From Pseudopyrenochaeta lycopersici (Eukaryota; Ascomycota; Dothideomycetes; Pleosporales; Pseudopyrenochaetaceae): a stretch of DNA of 64,000 bases. Below, piece by piece: positions 38,481-61,600 of the stretch. The notes under the pieces are model-generated. The model saw only the letters and a program-made list of their open reading frames with translations. It searched no databases and was not told the DNA's origin. Within the stretch, counting starts at the first letter, position 1. Every line of letters begins with the position of its first letter. Both the position numbers and the translations under genes were made by a program. Location: positions 124,001-188,000 of the forward strand of contig NHZP01000043.1 in NCBI GenBank assembly GCA_003313425.1, given 5' to 3'.

Positions 38481-38715
38481 AGTACCTAATGGAGTGGACA
38501 CCATGTACTCGCAGCTTGTCCATACTTGCCCGCGGCTCCAGCGATGATAGGACCCTTTCCATAGATTATAACGGCGAGATGAATCCTTGACGCGTCCAGC
38601 ACGGTCGTTTTCCTCGCTCCAAAATCGTCGACGCGGTTGAGGCCGCGCCAGGTACCTCTATACTTGTGCCGCTACATCTTAACGTGTTCCACCAGTCGGT
38701 GGCCAACACCAGTCG

Positions 38716-39325
38716 GTGGCCCACCTCTCCAACACCAACGCGATTGCTCTCCAAACAACCACCATGACTATTCAACGACCACCTCATGCAGCTCAAAAGG
38801 AGGGCCGTGTCCTTCTTGCGTCTCGGGCGATTAATTTTTTAAAAAAAATTACAAGTGTGCACAAGGCCCCGCAGCTGTATGATGTTCCTCGAACGACCCT
38901 CCGAGGCCGCCTTAAAGGCCGCCTGCCTACCTCAACGATCAACGCACGCAAACGTAAGCTATTACCTACCGAAGAGGAGCCTCTCGTTCAGTGGATACTA
39001 GACCTTGATCGACGAGGTTTTCCGCCTCAGATCATTGACGTACGACGAATGGCAGACTCCCTACTCGCCGCACGGGGCGGGCAGCCTCCACTACCACCTC
39101 TCGGCAAGAACTGGGTGTCACGCTTTGTCAACGCGCAGTCAGAGCTTCAGACAAAGCGGAACCGAAAATTTCACTCACAACGCGCGAAATGCGAGGATCC
39201 TGTGAAAATAAACGCGTGGTTCAGTCTCGTACAGGACACGCGCGAGACCTACGGGATAGTAGACGCGGATACCTATAACTTCGATGAGACTGGCTTCGCG
39301 ATGGGTGTCGCCTCAACGCGCTTTC
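38716..39325 (+). mobile_element. Fot1/pogo-type transposase, N-terminal half
   Basis: The frame from the ATG at 38764 gives a helix-turn-helix start (YDVPRTTLRGRLKGRLPTST), a CENP-B-like DNA-binding region (LVQWILDLDRRGFPPQIIDV, LGKNWVSRFVNAQSELQTKR) and the first catalytic aspartate in YNFDETGFAMGVAST. The frame is open for about 185 codons, then the sequence changes to the dispersed repeat at about 39325 and the rest of the DDE domain is missing. The N-terminal half is better preserved than the C-terminal half at 11331-12150. Confidence 0.88.
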
Positions 39326-47022: not shown

Positions 47023-49718
47023 ATGGATAATCGACTTCCCGCACGCAAGGTAGCGATTTCTAGGCTTGGAAGACATGAGCACGACCGCAAGGCCCCTCGG
47101 AAACCCCATGTGCGCAAAGCATGCAACAACTGTCACAAGCGTAAGGTCAGATGTAGTGGCGAACAGCCGCGTTGTCGAAACTGCGCAAACCAACATGTGT
47201 CTTGTGTCTATCCCCAGGCTCGAAGAGATCGCTTGAAAGAGTTCGTCTTCCAAACGCTGGACGATAGCCTAACTAATTCCCGAGCAGGGCTATCGACCAG
47301 AATGGTCAGCTCATTGCGCTTCTCAGAGATCTGAGTGCCCATGTTGACCATGAATGGCTGAAAAAGATTGATGAACTTTTCGATTCAGTATGTCTTCTCA
47401 TATCTGAAGTGTTGCTAGTACTAATACATAATAGCTTGGAGATAATGGCTCCGCTTATGCATCAACCATGGCACTGAATACATTTGGGGGACGATCAAGG
47501 GAGGAGTCATCATCTAATGAAGGAGGTAAAAGTGCCCCTAATCTCGAAGCAGCCGACGATTCTGGGCCAATGGACTCCAAGGACGGCCCTCATCTCTTGG
47601 ACGAGGATCTGCTTCGAAGCAACGAATCAAGAGCTACTGGCTTTGTTGGACAAAATTCTGAAGTTCAATGGTTGCGGAACCTCAAAACTCAAATGGGCAG
47701 TGCAACTTCAGAGGAGGGGACTGGCTGGCCATATGGATTACTCAACGGATTACAAGGTAGCAATAAGGAGGTTATTGTGCAACAAGCAGATGCTTTGTAT
47801 ACTCTGCAAAAATTATCCAAACCAAGTAGGATCTCATCTGTCTCGGATTCCACCTTTTACCTGGATAATGACAGCATCGACGTGGACGCCATGGTGGACC
47901 CATACGAGCTACCTCCGCCAGAGATTGCTGAAAAGTTGTTTGACTGCTATATGAAAACAATTCACAGTTCTTTCCCCGTCGTACCCGATGAGTTCGAGGA
48001 CCAGTTCCGAAGCTACAACAACTCCGTGAAACGAAATCGACTATATCAAGTCCCGGAGCATTGGCAAGCGACATTGAACTTGGTTTTGGCGATAGGGGCA
48101 CAGTATTCGCACTTGATACAGGCCGAATGGCGGGCGGACAAAAGAGACCACCGCATCTATATGACGAGAGCGATTCGGATTCTCGGGTTGGACAAAATTG
48201 CGACTTCTCTCCATGCTCCAAGCTTGTCGATAATTCGGGTATGTTACTGGGTACCCTGGGATGTCCCTGTCGGCACATTCTAATCACTATTAGGCTACCG
48301 GTCTGCTGTCTTTGTATTACTTAACAATCGGTCACGTTAGCCGGTAAGATAGTCCTCACTATAACCTCGTCCGTTTACAGCATTGACATTATTCCTCTAG
48401 AGCCTGGATAATGATAGGTACATCTATACGGTTCGCTCTTGCCGTTGGCCTCCATCTTCGAAACGACGATCCCTCTGCCTCGCCAAAAGAGAAAGAGAAC
48501 TTGGTACGGACATGGTGGAGCCTACATGCTATTGAGAGCCAATTGTGCATCCTCCTCGGTCGGCCTTATATTGTATCCAACGACACATGCACCGTTCCTT
48601 TACCGCAAGTAATGCCTGAAGAACAATCTAGTAACACTGTTCCACCTCAGTCGAGGGATCCGATAGGTATGAGAAGTAAAAGTATCGCACTTTCGGAGAC
48701 CTCTTCATCAGATACGTCCACCAGAGACGGTTTATACCCTGTCGTGCATGTTTCGTTTCTACAGGCTCGCACTAAAATCACTGTTATTGTGCAGAAAGCC
48801 CTCTCGAAACTGTACTTGCCACGGAAATCGATGGATTCCTGGGAACGGATTCAAAAGGAGATTACCTCATTGACAAAAGAACTGGATGAATGGGCGGCAG
48901 CAGTCTTACCTGAAGGACCTGGCCCGGTGGGCTCAATTCAAGAGCATGGAGTTCAGCGCGAGCGATTGTTGCTCAGCTTCCACTACCATAGCGCCAGATT
49001 ACTCATCTCTCGCCCAAGCCTTTGCCGCTCTGAGCGACGCATCAGGAGCCAGAGTGATGCCTCAGCAGTCTTTAATCAGAAGATGGCAGAATCATGTGTT
49101 CAAGCCGCTCAAGCGGTAACGAGACTTTTTCCCAAGCAACTAAGCTGGGTTTTCATTTACCAGCAAAGTCCGTGGTGGTGCATCGTACACTACATCATGC
49201 AGGCGATCGCAGTTTTTCTTCTTGAGATGTCCTTCAGCGGGACTGACACGACCCGCAATGGCGAGGAAATTTCTGAGAGCATCGATAAGCTCGTAAGATG
49301 GCTTCGGTTCATGAGCCTCAGCAATGCCGTCGCCGCACGCGCGTACAAACTGGTAATGAACATCATCAAGGCTAGCGCACATGTCCGAATTAACATATCC
49401 GATATTCCTATAGAGGAACAGGCGAGGCCGTCCTTCAACTGTTTCCCCACCATTTTCGGAGAACAGCAGCCTATACAGGCCTCTTGGGAATTTCAATCCG
49501 ATCAGTACTCTATGTTGGACCCGTGCCTGCAAATGCCTTTCACCTTCGGCACCCCCTTCATAACGGATTTTGATCAATGTAATCTGCTAAATATCGCGTC
49601 CTCTTTAAGTAGAGATCTTATTGGAGATGATCCATGGATAGGGCACCCGAATTTTCATCCAGAGGACAGTCATGGGCCATCTAACGTCTGTCCAAGCGTG
49701 CCGGGACGCACGGTGTAA
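47023..49718 (+). CDS. Zn2Cys6 fungal transcription factor
   Basis: Five exons (47023-47240, 47288-47387, 47435-48238, 48294-48343, 48401-49718) join in frame to 829 residues. Residues 30-60 hold the zinc cluster with spacing CX2CX6CX6CX2CX6C (ACNNCHKRKVRC...), followed by a linker and short coiled coil (DQNGQLIALLRDLS). The fungal-specific transcription factor domain covers roughly residues 290-600, with IHSSFPVVPDEFEDQFRSY and TWWSLHAIESQLCILLGRP. Such proteins bind CGG-type sites and usually control metabolism; no target cluster is apparent beside it. An in-frame ATG at 46978 would add 15 residues. The last 11 codons (49682-49715) and the stop lie within the left inverted repeat of the NLR unit, so the native C-terminus may have been replaced. 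Confidence 0.88.
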
Positions 49719-50176
49719 CGGGACAGGTTCGCACTTCGGAGCCTCGCAAGCTCTTGTTCCTTGGTCTACAGACGTGTAGTGATCAGGATGTATCCTTTGG
49801 TTAATGCTCTTTCAGACTATCCACCTCCGAGGAGCGGATCTACAACGTTTGTCGTACTGTCGATTGATTCGTTACTGCCGTCAAATAACCCTTCATCGAA
49901 ACCCCCCTGTCTATGCGCGAGTTGGAGGGTCTTTAAGAAAATCGGAAGGCGTTATGCTCAGTCCAACTAAGGAAGATAATTACGAAAACTTCAGTGACAC
50001 CATTAAGCTTGTCAAGATGAGGTCCGAGAGTTTCGCCGGGCGGGAGCAGAGATCGTGAAAAGTGTCCCATAGCGTCGGGATGCGCTAGTAAGCTTTAGCG
50101 TGCAGCAAGCCTGCAGTAGCGTGCTCAGATGTTGCTGCGTGTTATCGTAACGAATTCGACGCTATACCTATAACAG
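49682..50176 (+). repeat. Left inverted repeat of the NLR unit
   Basis: Pairs with 55561-56056 in inverted orientation over nearly equal length (495 and 496 bp). The outermost 68 bp (49682-49749) are identical to the reverse complement of 55989-56056; they start taacgtctgtccaagcgtgc. The inner part aligns with substitutions and small gaps; shared words include gagtttcgccggg, gcagtagcgtgctcagat and aattcgacgct. Similarity stops at about 50176. Confidence 0.85.
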
Positions 50177-50735
50177 ATTAATTGCCGAGAGTCGTTGTAG
50201 GGTAACCTGGCACGATCAGCTGCTCAGCCTCGCCATGGGACGCGGCCTTACCCATAGCACTGTGCTGCGCTCCCCGGAGAGGCCGCAACACGCTCTCCAC
50301 AGTGCACAATTCTCCCCATCGTCTTCGACACGCATTTTGTGGGCATCAGTGCTATTTGTCAACTAGTCCATCGGCAAGCGTGTACGCGACATCATGGGCG
50401 AAACTATCAGTGTGCAGTCACGCTGAAGATCAACGCAGCGTCGTTGCGGCAGCCGCACAGCCTTGCAGCTGACTGCCGTCTGAGGCATGGTGCGCCGCCA
50501 TCGTCAAACCAAGAATACGATACAGAACACCAGCCTCAGCTCGCGACTCCCAGAACGCTTCATACTATCATAGTGTCTGGAGCTGTACAGCTGCTTGTTC
50601 TCCTCTCCTTAGGCTGACCTCTACGTAAACAGCAAAGCCCGTTATTACCGCCACGCTCTCCTCCTACCAGGCTGCCGTATCAAGCCCTCGTATCTCGTCC
50701 TACCGCACGCGGCCGCCACGTATCCATATGAGTCG

Positions 50736-53700
50736 ATGCGCCTTCTAAAGTACAAAGAAGATGGAGAGCTTATTATCATTAGCTTCGACGATAACGCGAT
50801 ACCTCCATATACCATACTTTCACACACTTGGGGAGCTGATGACGAAGAGGTGACTTTTGCAGACTTTGTAAAAGGCGACGGCAAGGCTAAGCCTGGCTAC
50901 GAGAAGATTCGCTTCTGCGGAGAACATGCACAGCATGATGGTCTGCAGTACTTCTGGATTGACACATGCTGCATCGATACATCAGACAAGGCTGAGCATT
51001 CGTTGGCTATCAGGTCCATGTTTCGTTGGTACCAAAACGCGACGAAATGCTATGTATACCTATCAGACGTATCAACAAGGAAGCGGAAAGCCAGCAGTAT
51101 GCTTAGCGAATTTACTTGGGAGCCTGCTTTCAGGTCAAGTCGCTGGTTCACACGCGGTTGGACGCTTCAAGAGCTTCTTGCCCCTCGTACAGTCGAGTTC
51201 TTTTCTAAAGAACAAGAGAAGCTTGGTGACAAGGTGACGCTAAAGCCATTAATCTACAAAATCACCAGTATACCACACGAAGTGCTCGACGGAGCCCCTC
51301 TCTCCTGCTTTAGCGTCGACGAGCGGCTGCGGTGGAAAGGCGACAGGGAGACCAAACGTGACGAAGATGCGTGGTATTCATTATCAGGCATCTTTGGTGT
51401 TGAGATAGCGCCGGCTTACAGCGAAGGGGCGGCAAGCGCGTTCAGACGCCTGATGGACGAGATCCATAAGGGGGAAAGATGCATTCAAGACATACGGCAT
51501 ACGGATCCGCGTGACGACAAGAAGCGTATTGAAGATACAAAGGGTGGGCTGCTAGCAGACTCCTACCGATGGGTTCTCAACAACTATACCTTCCAGCAAT
51601 GGCAACAGGACCCGCACAGCCGACTGTTATGGGTAAAAGGTGATCCTGGTAAAGGCAAGACGATGCTGCTCTGCGGCATTATCGACGAGCTGCACAGCTC
51701 GATGCCTCGATCTACCCTTCTGTCGTACTTTTTCTGCCAAGCGACCGATTCGCGCATCAACAGCGCTACTGCTGTGTTACGCGGATTGCTGTACATGCTC
51801 GTAAACCAGCAACCGTCACTTGTATCGCACATCCGCAAGAAGTACGATCACGCGGGCAAAACCTTGTTCGAGGATGCAAATGCATGGGTAGCTCTGACAG
51901 AGATCTTCGTGGACGTGCTTCGAGACCCAAGCCTGAGCACGACGTACCTAATCGTCGACGCACTAGATGAATGCATCACTGATCTGCCTAAACTGCTTAA
52001 ATTTGTGGCAGAGCATTCATCTGCGTCTTACCGCGTCAAGTGGATTGTCTCTAGCCGTAATTGGCCAGATATCGAAGCACAATTAGAGCGGGCCGGGCAA
52101 AAAGTGAGACTGAGCCTTGAGCTAAACGCAGAGTCGGTCGCCGCGGCGGTTAACATCTTCATCCAGCAAAAGGTGGCCCAGTTGGCACAGGAAAAGAAAT
52201 ACAAAGTAGAGATTCGATCTGCCGTGCTCCAACACTTAACGTCAAATGCTAACGGTACCTTTCTCTGGGTAGCGTTAGTATGCCAAGACCTGAAAGCGAC
52301 ACCAAAATGGAACGTGCTAAAGAAGATAGCGCTATTCCCGCCTGGGCTAGACGCTTTGTACGAGCGGATGATGAACCAAATTAACGAGTCAGATAGTGCT
52401 GAGATCTGTCAGCAGGTGCTCGCATCTACTGTACTCTTCTATCGACCTGTTACGATCCCCGAATTAATTACGCTCGTGCAACTACTCGATGACTTTGTTG
52501 ATGATCTAGAGTCAGTGCGACAGATTATTAGCCTTTGTGGATCATTCCTTACTCTTCGAGAAGACACGATCTATTTTGTGCACCAATCCGCAAAGGACTT
52601 CCTACACACAAAGGCATTTAAAAAGGTTTTTCCAGATGGCACTGCAACCGTCCATCAGGTAATCTATTCGAGATCGCTAGCAATCCTATCTAGGACATTG
52701 CATAGGGACATATACGAACTTGAAGCACTAGGATTTCCTGTCAAAAACGTCAAGACGCCTAATCCAGACCCATTAGCAGGGTTGCGCTATCCCTGTATTT
52801 ACTGGATTGATCATCTCTACAACTCAAAACATGAGTCTTGTGCGCGTAGTGTTAGCGATGTACAAGTTACGGCCGTTCTCGATCAGTTTCTACGGAAGAA
52901 GTATCTCTACTGGCTAGAAGGACTTAGTCTATGCCATAGTATAGAAAGGGGTGTAGTATCAATATCCAAACTATGGTCACTTTTACAGGTACAGCATCCA
53001 GAAATTATACGTCTAGATAATGTACTACTTCTAGGGGCTAACTTAACTAGGAGATGCAGGTCCAAAATAAACTTACTCAGCTTGTTCAAGACGCACGACG
53101 ATTCCTCATGTACCACAAAGGGGCGATTGAAGGTTACCCCCTCCAAACATATGCGTCTGCGCTGTTGTTCAGTCCGACGGGTAGTTTGATTAGACAGCTG
53201 TTTCAGCACGAAGCGCCAGAACGAATAACTATTAAGCCAGCTATGAGTGACGGCTGGAGTGCGTGCCTGCAGACCCTCGAGGGCCATAGCGGTTTTGTCA
53301 ACTCAGTAGCCTTCTCGCACAACTCGGCCCAGCTGGCGTCGGCGTCGTATGATAGCACCGTCAAGATCTGGGATGCGAGCAGCGGGGCGTGCCTGCAGAC
53401 CCTCGAGGGCCATAGCAGTTATGTCAGCTCAGTGGCCTTCTCGCACGACTCGGCCCAGCTGGCGTCGGCGTCGTGGGACAAGACCGTCAAGATCTGGGAT
53501 GCGAGCAGCGGGGCGTGCCTGCAGACCCTCGAGGGCCACAGCAGTTGGGTCAGCTCAGTAGCCTTCTCGCACGACTCGGCCCAGCTGGCGTCGGCGTCGT
53601 ACGACAGAACCGTCAAGATCTGGGATGCGAGCAGCGGGGCGTGCCTGCAGACCCTCGAGGGCCACAGCAGTTATGTCAACTCAGTAGCCTTCTCGCACGA

Positions 53701-55219
53701 CTCGGCCCAGCTGGCGTCGGCGTCGGGGGACAGCACCGTCAAGATCTGGGATGCGAGCAGCGGGGCGTGCCTGCAGACCCTCGAGGGCCATAGCAGTTCT
53801 GTCTACTCAGTAGCCTTCTCGCACGACTCGGCCCAGCTGGCGTCGGCGTCGGACGACAGCACCGTCAAGATCTGGGATGCGAGCAGCGGGGCGTGCCTGC
53901 AGACCCTCGAGGGCCATAGCGGTTATGCCAGCTCAGTAGCCTTCTCGCACGACTCGGCCCAGCTGGCGTCGGCGTCGGGGGACAGAACCGTCAAGATCTG
54001 GGATGCGAGCAGCGGGGCGTGCCTGCAGACCCTCGAGGGCCATAGCAGTAATGTCAGCTCAGTAGCCTTCTCGCACCACTCGGCCCAGCTGGCGTCGGCG
54101 TCGAACGACAGCACCGTCAAGGTCTGGGATGCGAGCAGCGGGGCGTGCCTGCAGACCCTCGAGGGCCATAGCAGTTCTGTCAACTCAGTAGCCTTCTCGC
54201 ACGACTCGGCCCAGCTGGCGTCGGCGTCGTACGACAGCACCGTCAAGATCTGGGATACGAGCAGCGGGGCGTGCCTGCAGACCCTCGAGGGCCACAGCAG
54301 TTGGGTCAGCTCAGTAGCCTTCTCGCACGACTCGGCCCAGCTGGCGTCGGCGTCGGGGGACAGCACCGTCAAGATCTGGGATGCGAGCAGCGGGGCGTGC
54401 CTGCAGATCCTCGAGGGCCATAGCAGTTATGTCAACTCAGTAGCCTTCTCGCACCACTCGGCCCAGCTGGCGTCGGCGTCGGACGACAGCACCGTCAAGA
54501 TCTGGGATGCGAGCAGCGGGGCGTGCCTGCAGACCCTCGAGGGCCACAGCAGTAATGTCAGGTCAGTAGCCTTCTCGCACGACTCGGCCCAGCTGGCGTC
54601 GGCGTCGAACGACAGCACCGTCAAGGTCTGGGATGCGAGCAGCGGGGCGTGCCTGCAGACCCTCGAGGGCCACAGCAGTTATGTCAGCTCAGTAGCCTTC
54701 TCGCACGACTCGGCCCAGCTGGCGTCGGCGTCGTGGGACAGCACCGTCAAGATCTGGGATGCGAGCAGCGGGGCGTGCCTGCAGACCCTCGAGGGCCACA
54801 GCAGTTCTGTCTACTCAGTAGCCTTCTCGCACGACTCGGCCCAGCTGGCGTCGGCGTCGGACGACAGCACCGTCAAGATCTGGGATGCGAGCAGCGGCGC
54901 CTGCCTGCGAACATTTAACATTGGCAAGGCTCTTCATAACTTATCCTTTGACTCTACTGGCTCCTGTCTTTATACTGAAATAGGTCCTATCGATCTTCAG
55001 AACCTAGAAGTTCCTAGCATGAGAGATATTGCGGAACCTAAAAACTCCCTGCACGTAGGCACAAATCTTAGCTCAGACGGCATATGGATCAAGTATGCTA
55101 GCAGAAACATTCTATGGATACCATCTGAATACCGGCCATTATGCTCGTCTGTGTCAGGGAATATAGTTGCAATCGGTGTTGGCTCTGGAAGAGTATGGAC
55201 TTGCAGTATTAACCTTTGA
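50736..55219 (+). CDS. HET-NACHT-WD40 NLR (STAND) receptor
   Basis: Exons 50736-52988 and 53060-55219, joined by a 71-bp GT-AG intron, give 1,470 residues. Residues 1 to about 170 are a HET domain (MRLLKYKEDGEL, YTILSHTWGADDEEVTF, FWIDTCCID, RWFTRGWTLQELLAPRTVEF). A NACHT ATPase follows, with Walker A GDPGKGKT at residues 302-309 and Walker B YLIVDALDEC near 403. After the NACHT winged-helix part come 13 WD40 repeats (about 818-1364) and a 105-residue tail. This is the architecture of Podospora HET-E/HET-D and related STAND receptors: ligand sensed by WD40, ATP-driven oligomerisation, HET-triggered cell death in non-self recognition. Key motifs are present and no stop occurs, so it is probably functional. 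It is enclosed by long inverted repeats. Confidence 0.93.
53261..54898 (+). repeat. Thirteen-unit WD40 tandem array (126-bp units)
   Basis: Thirteen consecutive 42-codon units differ at few nucleotides. Changes cluster in codons after the GHS word (SF, SY, SW, SS, SN with following V/A and N/S/Y/R), at the residue before the D of xDxT (Y, W, G, D, N), at the next position (S, K, R), and at D/H/N in SHxS. The rest is nearly invariant at DNA level. The array lies in the second exon of the NLR gene. Confidence 0.95.
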
Positions 55220-55560
55220 CTTAGTGATATGTTATTAACAACATAACAATTCATTCTCTCTTTCTTTTTTCTTTTCTTAACTCTATTTTTTAGAGGGACG
55301 GGGATACACACAAATATATAAGCTATGTGTTGCTATATCGAAGCTTTGAGAATCCTACGACGGAGCAGTTGTCCCTATGTAACCCTACTTGGTGGATCCT
55401 AAAAATCACATTCTCGCTATTCGTATTTTTCTCTTCAGCATCTAAGGGCAGCTTGAAGGGTTGCTCACGGCGTGTGTGCACGATGCGGGCAGGTGGTCAT
55501 CGGCACTTCAAGAAGGATCTCGGCATTTGCCACAGTCTCTCTCTGTTGTAAGCTGACGAT
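55220..55560. other. 3' flank of the NLR gene
   Basis: Contains the 3' UTR region, with a T-rich stretch at 55255-55290. An open plus frame at 55327-55551 has no recognised domain. Confidence 0.35.
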
Positions 55561-56056
55561 CTGTTGTAGGTTTAGCGTCGAATTTGTTACACTAGCATAT
55601 AGCGATATCTGAGCACGCTACTGCAAGCTAGCTACACGCTAAGACACATTGGGGTGTCCCGACGCAATGGGTCACTTTCCAAGATCTTCAATCCCACCCG
55701 GCGAAACTCCCGGATTCTATCTCTACTAGCTTAACGCTAGTATTGAAGCTTACTGAGATGATCTCCCTCGATTTAGCTTTGCATTAGACCCTCCGATTTA
55801 CTAACATACTCTTTGACTCGCGGATAGACAGGGGGTATCGACGAAGGGTCGTTTGACGACAGTAACGGAACGATCCACAGCACGACCAACATCACGGTAG
55901 GGCTCGTCGGAGACTGATAGGCTAGAAGAGCATTGATTTTAGAACATTATCCCGCTGACTACATATTCATAGACTAAGGAATAAAAGGTTGCGAGGCTCC
56001 GAAGTGCGAACCTGTCCCGTTACACCGTGCGTCCCGGCACGCTTGGACAGACGTTA
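55561..56056 (-). repeat. Right inverted repeat of the NLR unit
   Basis: Reverse-complement partner of 49682-50176. The 68 bp at 55989-56056 are identical to the left end; inner sequence is diverged. Just outside, a decayed similarity to the sequence left of 49682 may extend about 25 bp, but no target-site duplication is evident. Confidence 0.85.
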
Positions 56057-56082
56057 CTTAGAGCCATGTTTACCTGGACATG

Positions 56083-58656: not shown

Positions 58657-61600
58657 CAGAGATGTCAACAATCAAGCCGATCAAGCCCTCGTCGTCGGCT
58701 TGGCTTGAGGCTTGATTTGGAGTCGTTAGGCTTGACTTGTTTGACTTGATTGCTTAGATGAGGCTGGCTTGGCTTGAAGCTTGATCGGTGGCTTGATTGT
58801 TTATTGTTGTAGAGATCGCTCGGCTATACTAATTACTCGACCTCCTGGCCCCAATAGCACAACTTGTATATAGCGTCTATTTCAGTGTCAGTTATTCTTG
58901 CTGTAGCAACGCTGCTGCCTTGATCAAAGCCAGCCTTATACCACCGCCTTATACACTGAATAGCAGCCAGTAACTAGGGTGAGATCTTCCGCCTTCGGGG
59001 CTCAAGCAGGTCGCCAAGCTCGCTGAACATACGCTCACACTCGCAGCTTGACGCTAGGATAGAGATGACGTCGATAGCCATCTTAGAGAGATTAGGGTAG
59101 CGATCGCGCAAGCTTACCCAGTATTTAATTGGGAAGTTTGCGGCATCACTACCCTTCTCAACCCTTGGCTCGCACCTCTTCCACCTATTAAACTCGTCTA
59201 TCTCGCTGTCCTCAGCAGCCGCGCTAGCCTCAGGATCGATGAGGGCTTCAATAGCCTCGTCAATATCGTTGGTAACAACCTTTGGCCGCCTCACTAGGCG
59301 TGGTGAGCGGTTGTATTCAGCCCAAAGCGCGCGGAACGCGCAATTATTAGCGTCCAGCCACTCAGGCTTGTCAGCCCAGGCAACGTCGCAGTAAGTTTTA
59401 TAGCGCGGATAGAGTATCGTTGCCGCGTAGTACGCTGGTGAGAGGTCGAGTTTATTGTAGTAATCGCTAGCCTTCGCCCAGGCAGCGCGAAGGTTGATCG
59501 CGAGATGGTCCTCAGGCGCGTCGTCGTGCGCATTATAGTCGACTGCCTCGTACACCTTGACGCGCTGCTCGTAGTAAGTAAGTATAAACTCAAAGACTGG
59601 GATAACCTCAGCAATAGCGCCATAACGGCCACTTTTGCCGCGACCTTCAAGCCGCTTTGTTACCAACTTTAGCGGCTTTAGTACGTCTATGTACTCAGTA
59701 ACGACCGCCCAATCGGCGGCTGTTAGCCCGTCCGATCGCATCCAGGGCGCTGCCTCCGGCAGCTTATTGCCGCGACTTATCGCGTACGTGTCCTCATCTC
59801 GCACGCGGCGTATATAGTAGTTAGCGTAGGCGTTAACTGCTGGCTGCAGTTCCACGGCGCGCTCAAAGGCAGAGTAGTACGAGTTCCAGCGCGTGACAAC
59901 TGGCTTGATTGGCTCAAGTATCCTGTATTAATCTGTGGGCAGCTCAGCGTTAGCGAGGCGCTGAAAGTTTTTAAAAAGCTCATGTTGTTACGGCGTTTTA
60001 ATGTAGTTAATAACGCTAAGAAGCACGCCTAAAGGCCCATCCTCGCGCCATTTGCGCATTAACTCGCTCTCAGCAGCAAGCTCACCGCTATCATTGTCGT
60101 ACGCGTCGTCGTTGTTACCCCAGAGTAGCGTCTGACCGATAAGGTTAAGGATGTGAGGGCCGCAACGGAGGCGGCGATAGGGAGCGATGAAGCCCATCTA
60201 CTGCGCGAGCTTAAGGACAGCAGCGTCGTTGTTAGTAGCGTTATCAAGCATAAAGTAGCCAACTGTACGCGGATTTATGCCGAACTGCTGCAGCGTTTTG
60301 CTAACTACTTCAGCAATCTTCTCGCCAGTGTGAGCGCCCGTCAGCTGCGGCAGCGCGATAGGTACGTCTACAAGGTCACCAACGCTGTTAACGTAGTAAG
60401 CAACAACGCCTAAGAAGCCACGCTTGCCGCCTTTAGTCGTCCAGCTGTCAAAGCTAATATAGACCTTACTTATTGATTGCGACAGCTCAGCAACAACCTG
60501 CGGCTGCATAAAGTCGAAACGGCGCATTACAAAGCGTGAAACACTCGCATAGGAGGTCCACAATGCCGCCACTGCCTCAGGATTTGCAGCTTCAAGCAGC
60601 CGTCGAAACGCGGGGGACTCAAACTCAGAAATTGGATGGTTGTTCTCAACAAGCCATGCGACAGCAGCATGTCAAAAATCCTGAATGCTAAAGCCGGCAA
60701 GCTCGTTAGCAACGTCTTAGGATACCTTAACTTTGCCGGCCTTAAAGACAGCGCGCAGCCCGCTCTTACCTGCCTTCGTCGCAGCGTGCGCTTTGCCTGG
60801 AGCTGCGTAACGATAGCCGCGTTTATTCTGCTCTAAATGGCGCGCTAAGGTCGACGTCGATAGCGTTGTTTCGTATATGCCGCCGCCACCAGCGTCGATA
60901 ATCTTATGCTCATAACAATAGCAACAGACAAAGAAGGTGCAGTCTAGGTCCTTAATAAGCGCAACGCGAAAGCCGTAGAGGTATACCCAGCTCTTTTTCT
61001 GCCTCTGCGTAGCCAACGGCTTGCAGTATTAAGGTAAACGTGACTAATTAATCCCCTCGAAGTCGTCTGCAAAGCGCTTATCAAAGCCCTTACTACTATT
61101 ATTATTATCTCCTAACGTAGCTACTGTTGCAGCCTTGCTGCCCTCAATAGACGTGACGATCGCAACGTTAGGCTGAGACTCGCGCAACTGCGACTCAAAG
61201 GTGGGTGGCTCGGTAGCCTAAGACGCGGCAGTCGTCAGTGCTTTACGCGGCGATAGACGCTAAGATAGTTGCTGGGTTGTATTAACGTCAACAGGCTGGG
61301 ACTCAATGCTACAAGCAGCAACCCTTAGGCGCTTGTTCGGGACAGCAGCGCTGTTACAGGGACGTTTAGGGGCTTTGTTAAGCGGCATAGCAACAATAGG
61401 GGCGTAAAAAACCACTAAGTAACTGTCTATATAGGCAAAGGCGACAGTATAGGTAGATGACGCGTAAGATGGACGCGTAAAGTAGCTTTAGGTAGGTAGC
61501 TGAGATGCTTACTAAGCTAACTATAACACCAGGAAAGTATCGCGAGATCGCTCGTACAGCAAACTTAGTAGCCTCATTGAAATCGAAGCGAAAACATGTT

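Follow-up and report, generated by a model that had tools for sequence, protein, structure and literature searches.

Structure of the NLR element in the window

The window analysed here is a stretch of 64,000 nucleotides from Pseudopyrenochaeta lycopersici (formerly Pyrenochaeta), in which a receptor gene of the NLR type lies between two inverted arms (49682-50176 and 55561-56056). The 68 outermost bp of the arms are identical. Over the whole arms 377 of 491 aligned positions agree (about 77%), and over their inner part 309 of 423, which bears out the preliminary description of inverted arms with identical ends and diverged interiors. Each arm as first described includes at its outer end 2 bp that belong to a TA target duplication (49682-49683 on the left and 56055-56056 on the right), so that the element proper spans 49684-56054; this copy of 6.4 kb is without a transposase gene. 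It begins with a terminal inverted repeat (TIR) of the L type on the plus strand (49684-50176), starting ACGTCTGTCC, and ends with a TIR of the R type on the minus strand (55561-56054), both delimited by the arm alignment, matches in the genome and a scan for the terminus. The left TIR is followed by 5′ noncoding DNA (50177-50735), recognised by its colinearity with a longer copy at C51:80377 (copies are given here by contig and position), and the receptor gene by 3′ noncoding DNA (55220-55560), both on the plus strand.

Pfam identified HET, NPHP3_N/NACHT and WD40 domains in the NLR, which is likewise read on the plus strand. Pfam matches and the reading frame assign HET and NACHT/NPHP3_N to exon 1 (50736-52988), and the WD40 domain and C-terminus to exon 2 (53060-55219, stop codon at 55217-55219), with thirteen WD40 repeats of 42 codons each at 53267-54904. 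The 71-bp intron between the exons (52989-53059, plus strand, GTACAG...TGCAG) is a prediction from a frame test only, and other frame-compatible introns exist; with it the product has 1470 residues, and the reading frame looks intact on the assumption of this one intron. No other gene was recognised between 49682 and 56056, in agreement with the earlier statement that the NLR stands alone between the arms. Adjoining the element on the left is the gene that it interrupts (48387-49681, plus strand), delimited by homologues, alignment and the single-TA join described below; most of its homologues carry the annotation PF04082 (fungal transcription factor).

Dispersal of the element

The genome (62,731,430 bases in 188 contigs, the window copy being C43) contained at least 31 matches to the left arm and at least 32 to the right, about 30 candidates having been scored per arm. 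The terminus pattern, with up to three mismatches, was found at 24 ends in the genome against none in the reversed control, and these counts together exclude chance. Facing TIR pairs were present at the window copy, C54:45818-51322, C46:221379-227249, C59:56993-63238, C37:304337-324894 and C28:425232-463086. Two TIR-paired elements abut each other at C51:80377-90183 and C51:90170-105027, and a partial pair is found at C5:1936325-1941228. In the DNA retrieved, one end was seen at C34, C62, C66, C69, C30, C14, C5:1966170 and C37:204223, while C51:162098 and C51:244193 are short matches separated by 82 kb. Two sister elements, at C54 and C46, match the window copy along its full length (94-97%). 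Conservation of the TIR is highest in its outer 75 bp: across 17 of the 24 ends, selected for this comparison, the mean major-base frequency per 25-bp bin was 0.93-0.97 there versus 0.76-0.91 further in.

The copies sit in unrelated flanking DNA, which bears on the question whether the element is part of a giant Starship or travels with one. Starships are on record as carriers of NLR genes (PMC12134995, PMC9594970, in the text available), but the element has its own TIRs and TA duplication, its flanks differ from copy to copy, and no DUF3435 tyrosine-recombinase captain was hit among 20 ORFs scanned; we consider an origin within a Starship very improbable. The preliminary description had also allowed for an inversion-prone cassette, and nothing in favour of this was found in this genome.

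Target-site duplication and empty sites

Earlier, no target duplication had been reported for the locus. This statement is corrected here: TA is duplicated, as seen from the empty sites of two sister copies and from the gene join in the window, and the duplication had been overlooked because it consists of TA only. The flanks of the C54, C46, C37 and C28 elements were fused with a single TA and run against the genome. Among the best 40 of 205 candidates scored, 36 matched the C46 join and four the C54 join, all across the junction, and none matched the C37 or C28 join. Three empty sites were read (one of the C46 type and two of the C54 type), each with a single TA versus a TA on both sides when occupied. 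No duplication longer than TA was found in seven element pairs, except at the C51 tandem, whose outer ends have two further bases in common next to the TA.

The insertion point of the window copy falls among the last codons of the PF04082-type gene. When its flanks are joined through a single TA, the frame ends in ...HPEDSHGPST followed by a stop (56059-56061), and six of nine homologues, when aligned, end within a few residues of this joined stop (e.g. ...EDNQDPPA, ...PENSEWPPA), the other three ending earlier. The TA duplication of the window copy itself is inferred from this restored gene end, the two sides being brought together by the single-TA join. When reading frames were followed across the joins of six elements, the gene at the window copy was the sole convincing case of an interruption.

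These data also decide about a stationary NLR flanked by a local inverted duplication, without any mobility. The arm identity of about 77% would fit an old duplication, but the arms are paired at other loci and are bordered by TA duplications, and the empty sites refute this explanation, to which we attach practically no credence. The preliminary description had made its mobile reading depend on the repeat occurring elsewhere and on the existence of empty alleles. The repeat proved to be dispersed and two other copies have empty sites, in support of a transposon with long TIRs that carries a receptor.

A transposase gene in the longer form

The earlier statement that no transposase was found stands for the window copy and fails for its longer relative at C51:80377-90183, in which a DDE_1 gene (PF03184, E 2.7e-30) is located between the TIRs, just 5′ of the NLR. 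The 5′ noncoding DNA of this copy is colinear with the window up to position 50325 (72% identity) and resumes at 50324, with 1.8 kb between; the transposase junction site of the window copy is thus at about 50324/50325, inside its 5′ noncoding DNA. The transposase ATG is found 3 bp into the 1.8-kb segment, that is, 3 bp past the end of the shared 5′ region, and opens an ORF of 564 codons; homologues of 564-565 aa exist. Homologues elsewhere are up to 85% identical, among them several at 83-84% in other fungi, and one is named “transposase tan1”. As regards the CENP-B type helix-turn-helix looked for at the N-terminus of the transposase, Pfam detected DDE_1 and nothing else in the C51 protein, and several of the homologues carry PF03221. 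A scan of viral contigs with the transposase yielded no relative. The NLR of this copy is split by an insert carrying reverse-transcriptase domains; minus this retrotransposon insert, the long form measures about 7 kb.

The DNA of the transposase segment had 20 matches, of which three were at 89% or more: C51 itself, C46 at about 137130 and C88 at about 23279. All three are found upstream of an NLR on the same strand, and the DNA between transposase and NLR is common to C51 and both C46 (97%) and C88 (89-90%); at C88 the two genes are separated by a copy of another pogo family (33% identical). The C46 and C88 loci carry partial transposases, and neither the arm matches nor the terminus scan placed a TIR there. 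No single copy was found with TIRs, an intact transposase and an intact NLR together.

We read the family as pogo-like, from the DDE_1 domain, the names of the homologues and the TA. The unit in the window is very probably a copy of such a DNA transposon of the IS630-Tc1-mariner group, carrying a HET-NACHT-WD40 NLR. Its ends are TIRs of about 493 bp, and its insertion takes place at TA, with duplication of the TA. The full form would have the order TIR, DDE_1 transposase, NLR, TIR, as at C51:80377-90183, and its transposase would cut at the TIR ends and paste into TA. In the lineage of the window copy the transposase gene would have been lost by internal deletion; such derivatives would keep the NLR, and the window copy would have been moved in trans by transposase from full copies. 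The C51 DDE_1 protein probably acts on these particular TIR ends.

It is unlikely, though it keeps some weight, that the NLR element is moved by another TA-inserting transposase and that the DDE_1 gene came to C51:80377 later, as an unrelated insertion or gain. Many more DDE_1 copies are indeed present in the genome (at least 74 matches, from the best 72 of 952 candidates scored), and most of the TIR copies examined are without a transposase. So is C42, a diverged copy at 84% protein identity: it retains remnants of the TIRs, and the upstream DNA retrieved for it contains no transposase. However, a search around the DDE_1 gene (L013:300-3500) revealed no inverted repeats reaching 14 bp, the gene starts right at the end of the 5′ noncoding homology, and the same arrangement of transposase and NLR is found at three loci. 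An NLR lay no more than 7 kb away from 6 of 19 DDE_1 copies of a “close” group and from 2 of 53 of a distant group (one-sided Fisher p 0.003); with a limit of 5 kb the counts were 5 of 19 and 2 of 53 (p 0.012). The split into close and distant was made post hoc, after the list was seen.

An unrooted tree built from the intergenic DNA unites the three transposase-bearing copies and separates them from seven that lack the gene. C42 falls on the side of the transposase-bearing copies, with a very long branch (support 0.857), and with this placement one loss and one gain of the transposase are both possible. Loss within the pogo-like family is favoured, since copies without a transposase must obtain one from elsewhere.

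The NLR family and its WD40 repeats

The NLR query gave at least 58 matches (from the best 56 of 404 candidates scored), corresponding to 52 loci after six split genes had been merged. Fifteen of these 52 scored loci contain DNA of the element: TIR sequence in ten, the transposase junction in two, and 5′ noncoding DNA only in three, where the sharing could reflect a common promoter and need not mark the element. Weak 3′ matches to the element occur at a few further NLR loci; the absence of element DNA from the others may be due to decay, to the limits of the search or to an independent origin. Among the 120 matches listed, the relatives of the NLR were 74-85% identical, with one at 61%; many Pleosporales and some Helotiales are among the named ones.

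The thirteen repeats of the window NLR vary only at positions 3, 9, 10, 11, 12, 19, 28, 30, 34 and 37. When 36 repeats from five copies were pooled, positions 9, 10, 12, 28 and 30 held five to six residues and the other 37 positions one to three. The number of repeats, as found by one pattern search, was 13 in C43, 5 in C54, 4 in C46, 4 in C51a, 10 in C51b, 9 in C34, 10 in C37, 7 in C5 and 0 in C59. The C59 copy is strongly degraded, with 26 TAG and 20 TAA.

NG86 estimates of dN/dS over codons 1-570 were 0.12-0.27 for all pairs minus C59, and 0.18-0.34 with C59 included and stops skipped. Their value as proof of selection is weakened by the fact that some copy pairs are closer in the coding region than in noncoding DNA. 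C51b and C43, for example, differ by 1.6-2.5% in coding bins and 6.8-10.9% in noncoding bins. This points to gene conversion, so that the range of 0.12-0.27 cannot be read copy by copy. At C75 the 5′ DNA is 96% identical and the NLR 82%; together with the mismatch between coding and noncoding DNA, this suggests that receptor reading frames have been exchanged between copies.

The NLR is probably expressed and would serve in fungal non-self recognition, with a repertoire that transposition would spread and recombination between copies would reshuffle. A more speculative proposal, which we hold to be unlikely, is that transposase and NLR form a two-gene selfish unit, in which the NLR would be the persistence gene of the element, retained for its benefit to the latter, and the host repertoire a by-product. 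If true, an immune receptor would be serving the persistence of the element itself, and it could, for example, punish hyphal fusion partners or nuclei without matching copies.

Comparison with known elements and receptors

Capture of host sequence by a pogo element is known from Aspergillus niger, where one carries an amylase fragment. In the available text of a survey of the group, pogo elements measure 1.2-5.2 kb, TIRs of 392-856 bp are given for some insect elements only, a subset of the Fot elements and other pogo families are described as duplicating TA, and tan1 is named among the pogo relatives (PMC7386202). The element described here resembles pogo/Fot elements in the DDE-type transposase of its long form, its TIRs and its TA duplication, but differs in carrying an NLR, in TIRs of about 493 bp and in a length of 6.4 to about 7 kb versus 1.2-5.2 kb, a range that is descriptive and sets no defining limit (PMC7386202). 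In Pyrenophora tritici-repentis, an extra ORF inside the TIRs of a hAT or Tc1/mariner element has been multiplied, and the hAT element occurs as a longer version, probably autonomous, and a shorter one that is not; the cargo reported in the text at hand is a histone H3-like protein or an osmosensory coiled-coil ORF, whereas here it is an NLR (PMC3538342).

The receptor itself resembles the HNWD NLRs of Podospora anserina (het-d, het-e) in its HET-NACHT-WD40 layout and in highly conserved WD40 repeats with few hypervariable positions and varying repeat number; unlike it, het-d and het-e are not described as transposon genes in the parts of these reports that were available, which do mention a TE relic upstream of one NWD pseudogene (PMC12222747, PMC1805685). 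Starships likewise are mobile DNA with NACHT NLRs in ascomycetes, but they are giant tyrosine-recombinase elements with many genes, such as Icarus with 294 kb (PMC12134995, PMC9594970, text in part); compared with them, the present element offers a small, tractable mobile NLR.

In P. lycopersici ER1518, 42 HET genes near TEs and a HET expansion have been reported; the association is one of proximity alone, and the available text describes no NLR-carrying transposon (PMC6034849). As far as the text available goes, published work thus covers NLRs carried by Starships, additional ORFs within Tc1/mariner elements of fungi, and HET genes close to TEs. No NLR inside a pogo or Tc1/mariner element was found in the open-licence literature searched, of which the text was available in part. 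The pogo-like element would explain in concrete terms how the HET/NACHT expansion in this species (PMC6034849, available text) came about, at least in part, and transposon spread of the NLR may partly account for the many such genes of the fungus. Whether non-self recognition repertoires arise from transposition and recombination between copies can now be tested.

Other reading frames inside the copies

MULE ORFs (PF10551) are present inside the C37 and C51 copies. A MULE was rejected as the mover of the element, since the 8-11 bp target duplication is absent in the seven element pairs, which show TA only, and since just two of the 45 genome matches of this MULE family fall inside TIR pairs by coordinates. 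The C37 copy also contains NDC10_II and GCR1_C ORFs, which we take to be nested material.

Related copies elsewhere in the genome

Several further loci on other contigs of the same genome differ in size and arrangement from the NLR-carrying, probably pogo-like element of the window. The copy on contig C37 (C37:304337-324894; segments L016-L018) is 20.5 kb long and encloses a large palindrome containing MULE, NDC10_II and GCR1_C ORFs. At C28:425232-463086 (L025, L026) the facing terminal inverted repeats (TIRs) are separated by 37.8 kb, and the terminal parts examined hold a DDE_1/Tc5-type ORF and a hAT ORF; this locus is perhaps a very large composite element. Two adjoining elements lie head-to-head at C51:80377-105027 (L013-L015), both lacking the outer bases of their right ends, which have 14 bp in common at a near-palindrome within the TIR. 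The C46:221379-227249 copy lies within a repeat, and at least 36 matches to its flanks, joined with a single TA, cross the junction.

The locus at C75:57719-59976 shares 96% identity with the window element in the 5′ noncoding DNA, but only 82% in the NLR, and appears to be a mosaic. At C14:30649 (L027:3265-4932) an ORF of 556 aa lies beyond a right-type end, and HET is the sole Pfam domain found in it.

The window also contains the C-terminal region of a hAT transposase (PF05699) to the right of the element (58977-59927), and a stretch at 38674-39318 with ~68% identity to the pogo-like copy situated between transposase and NLR on C88.
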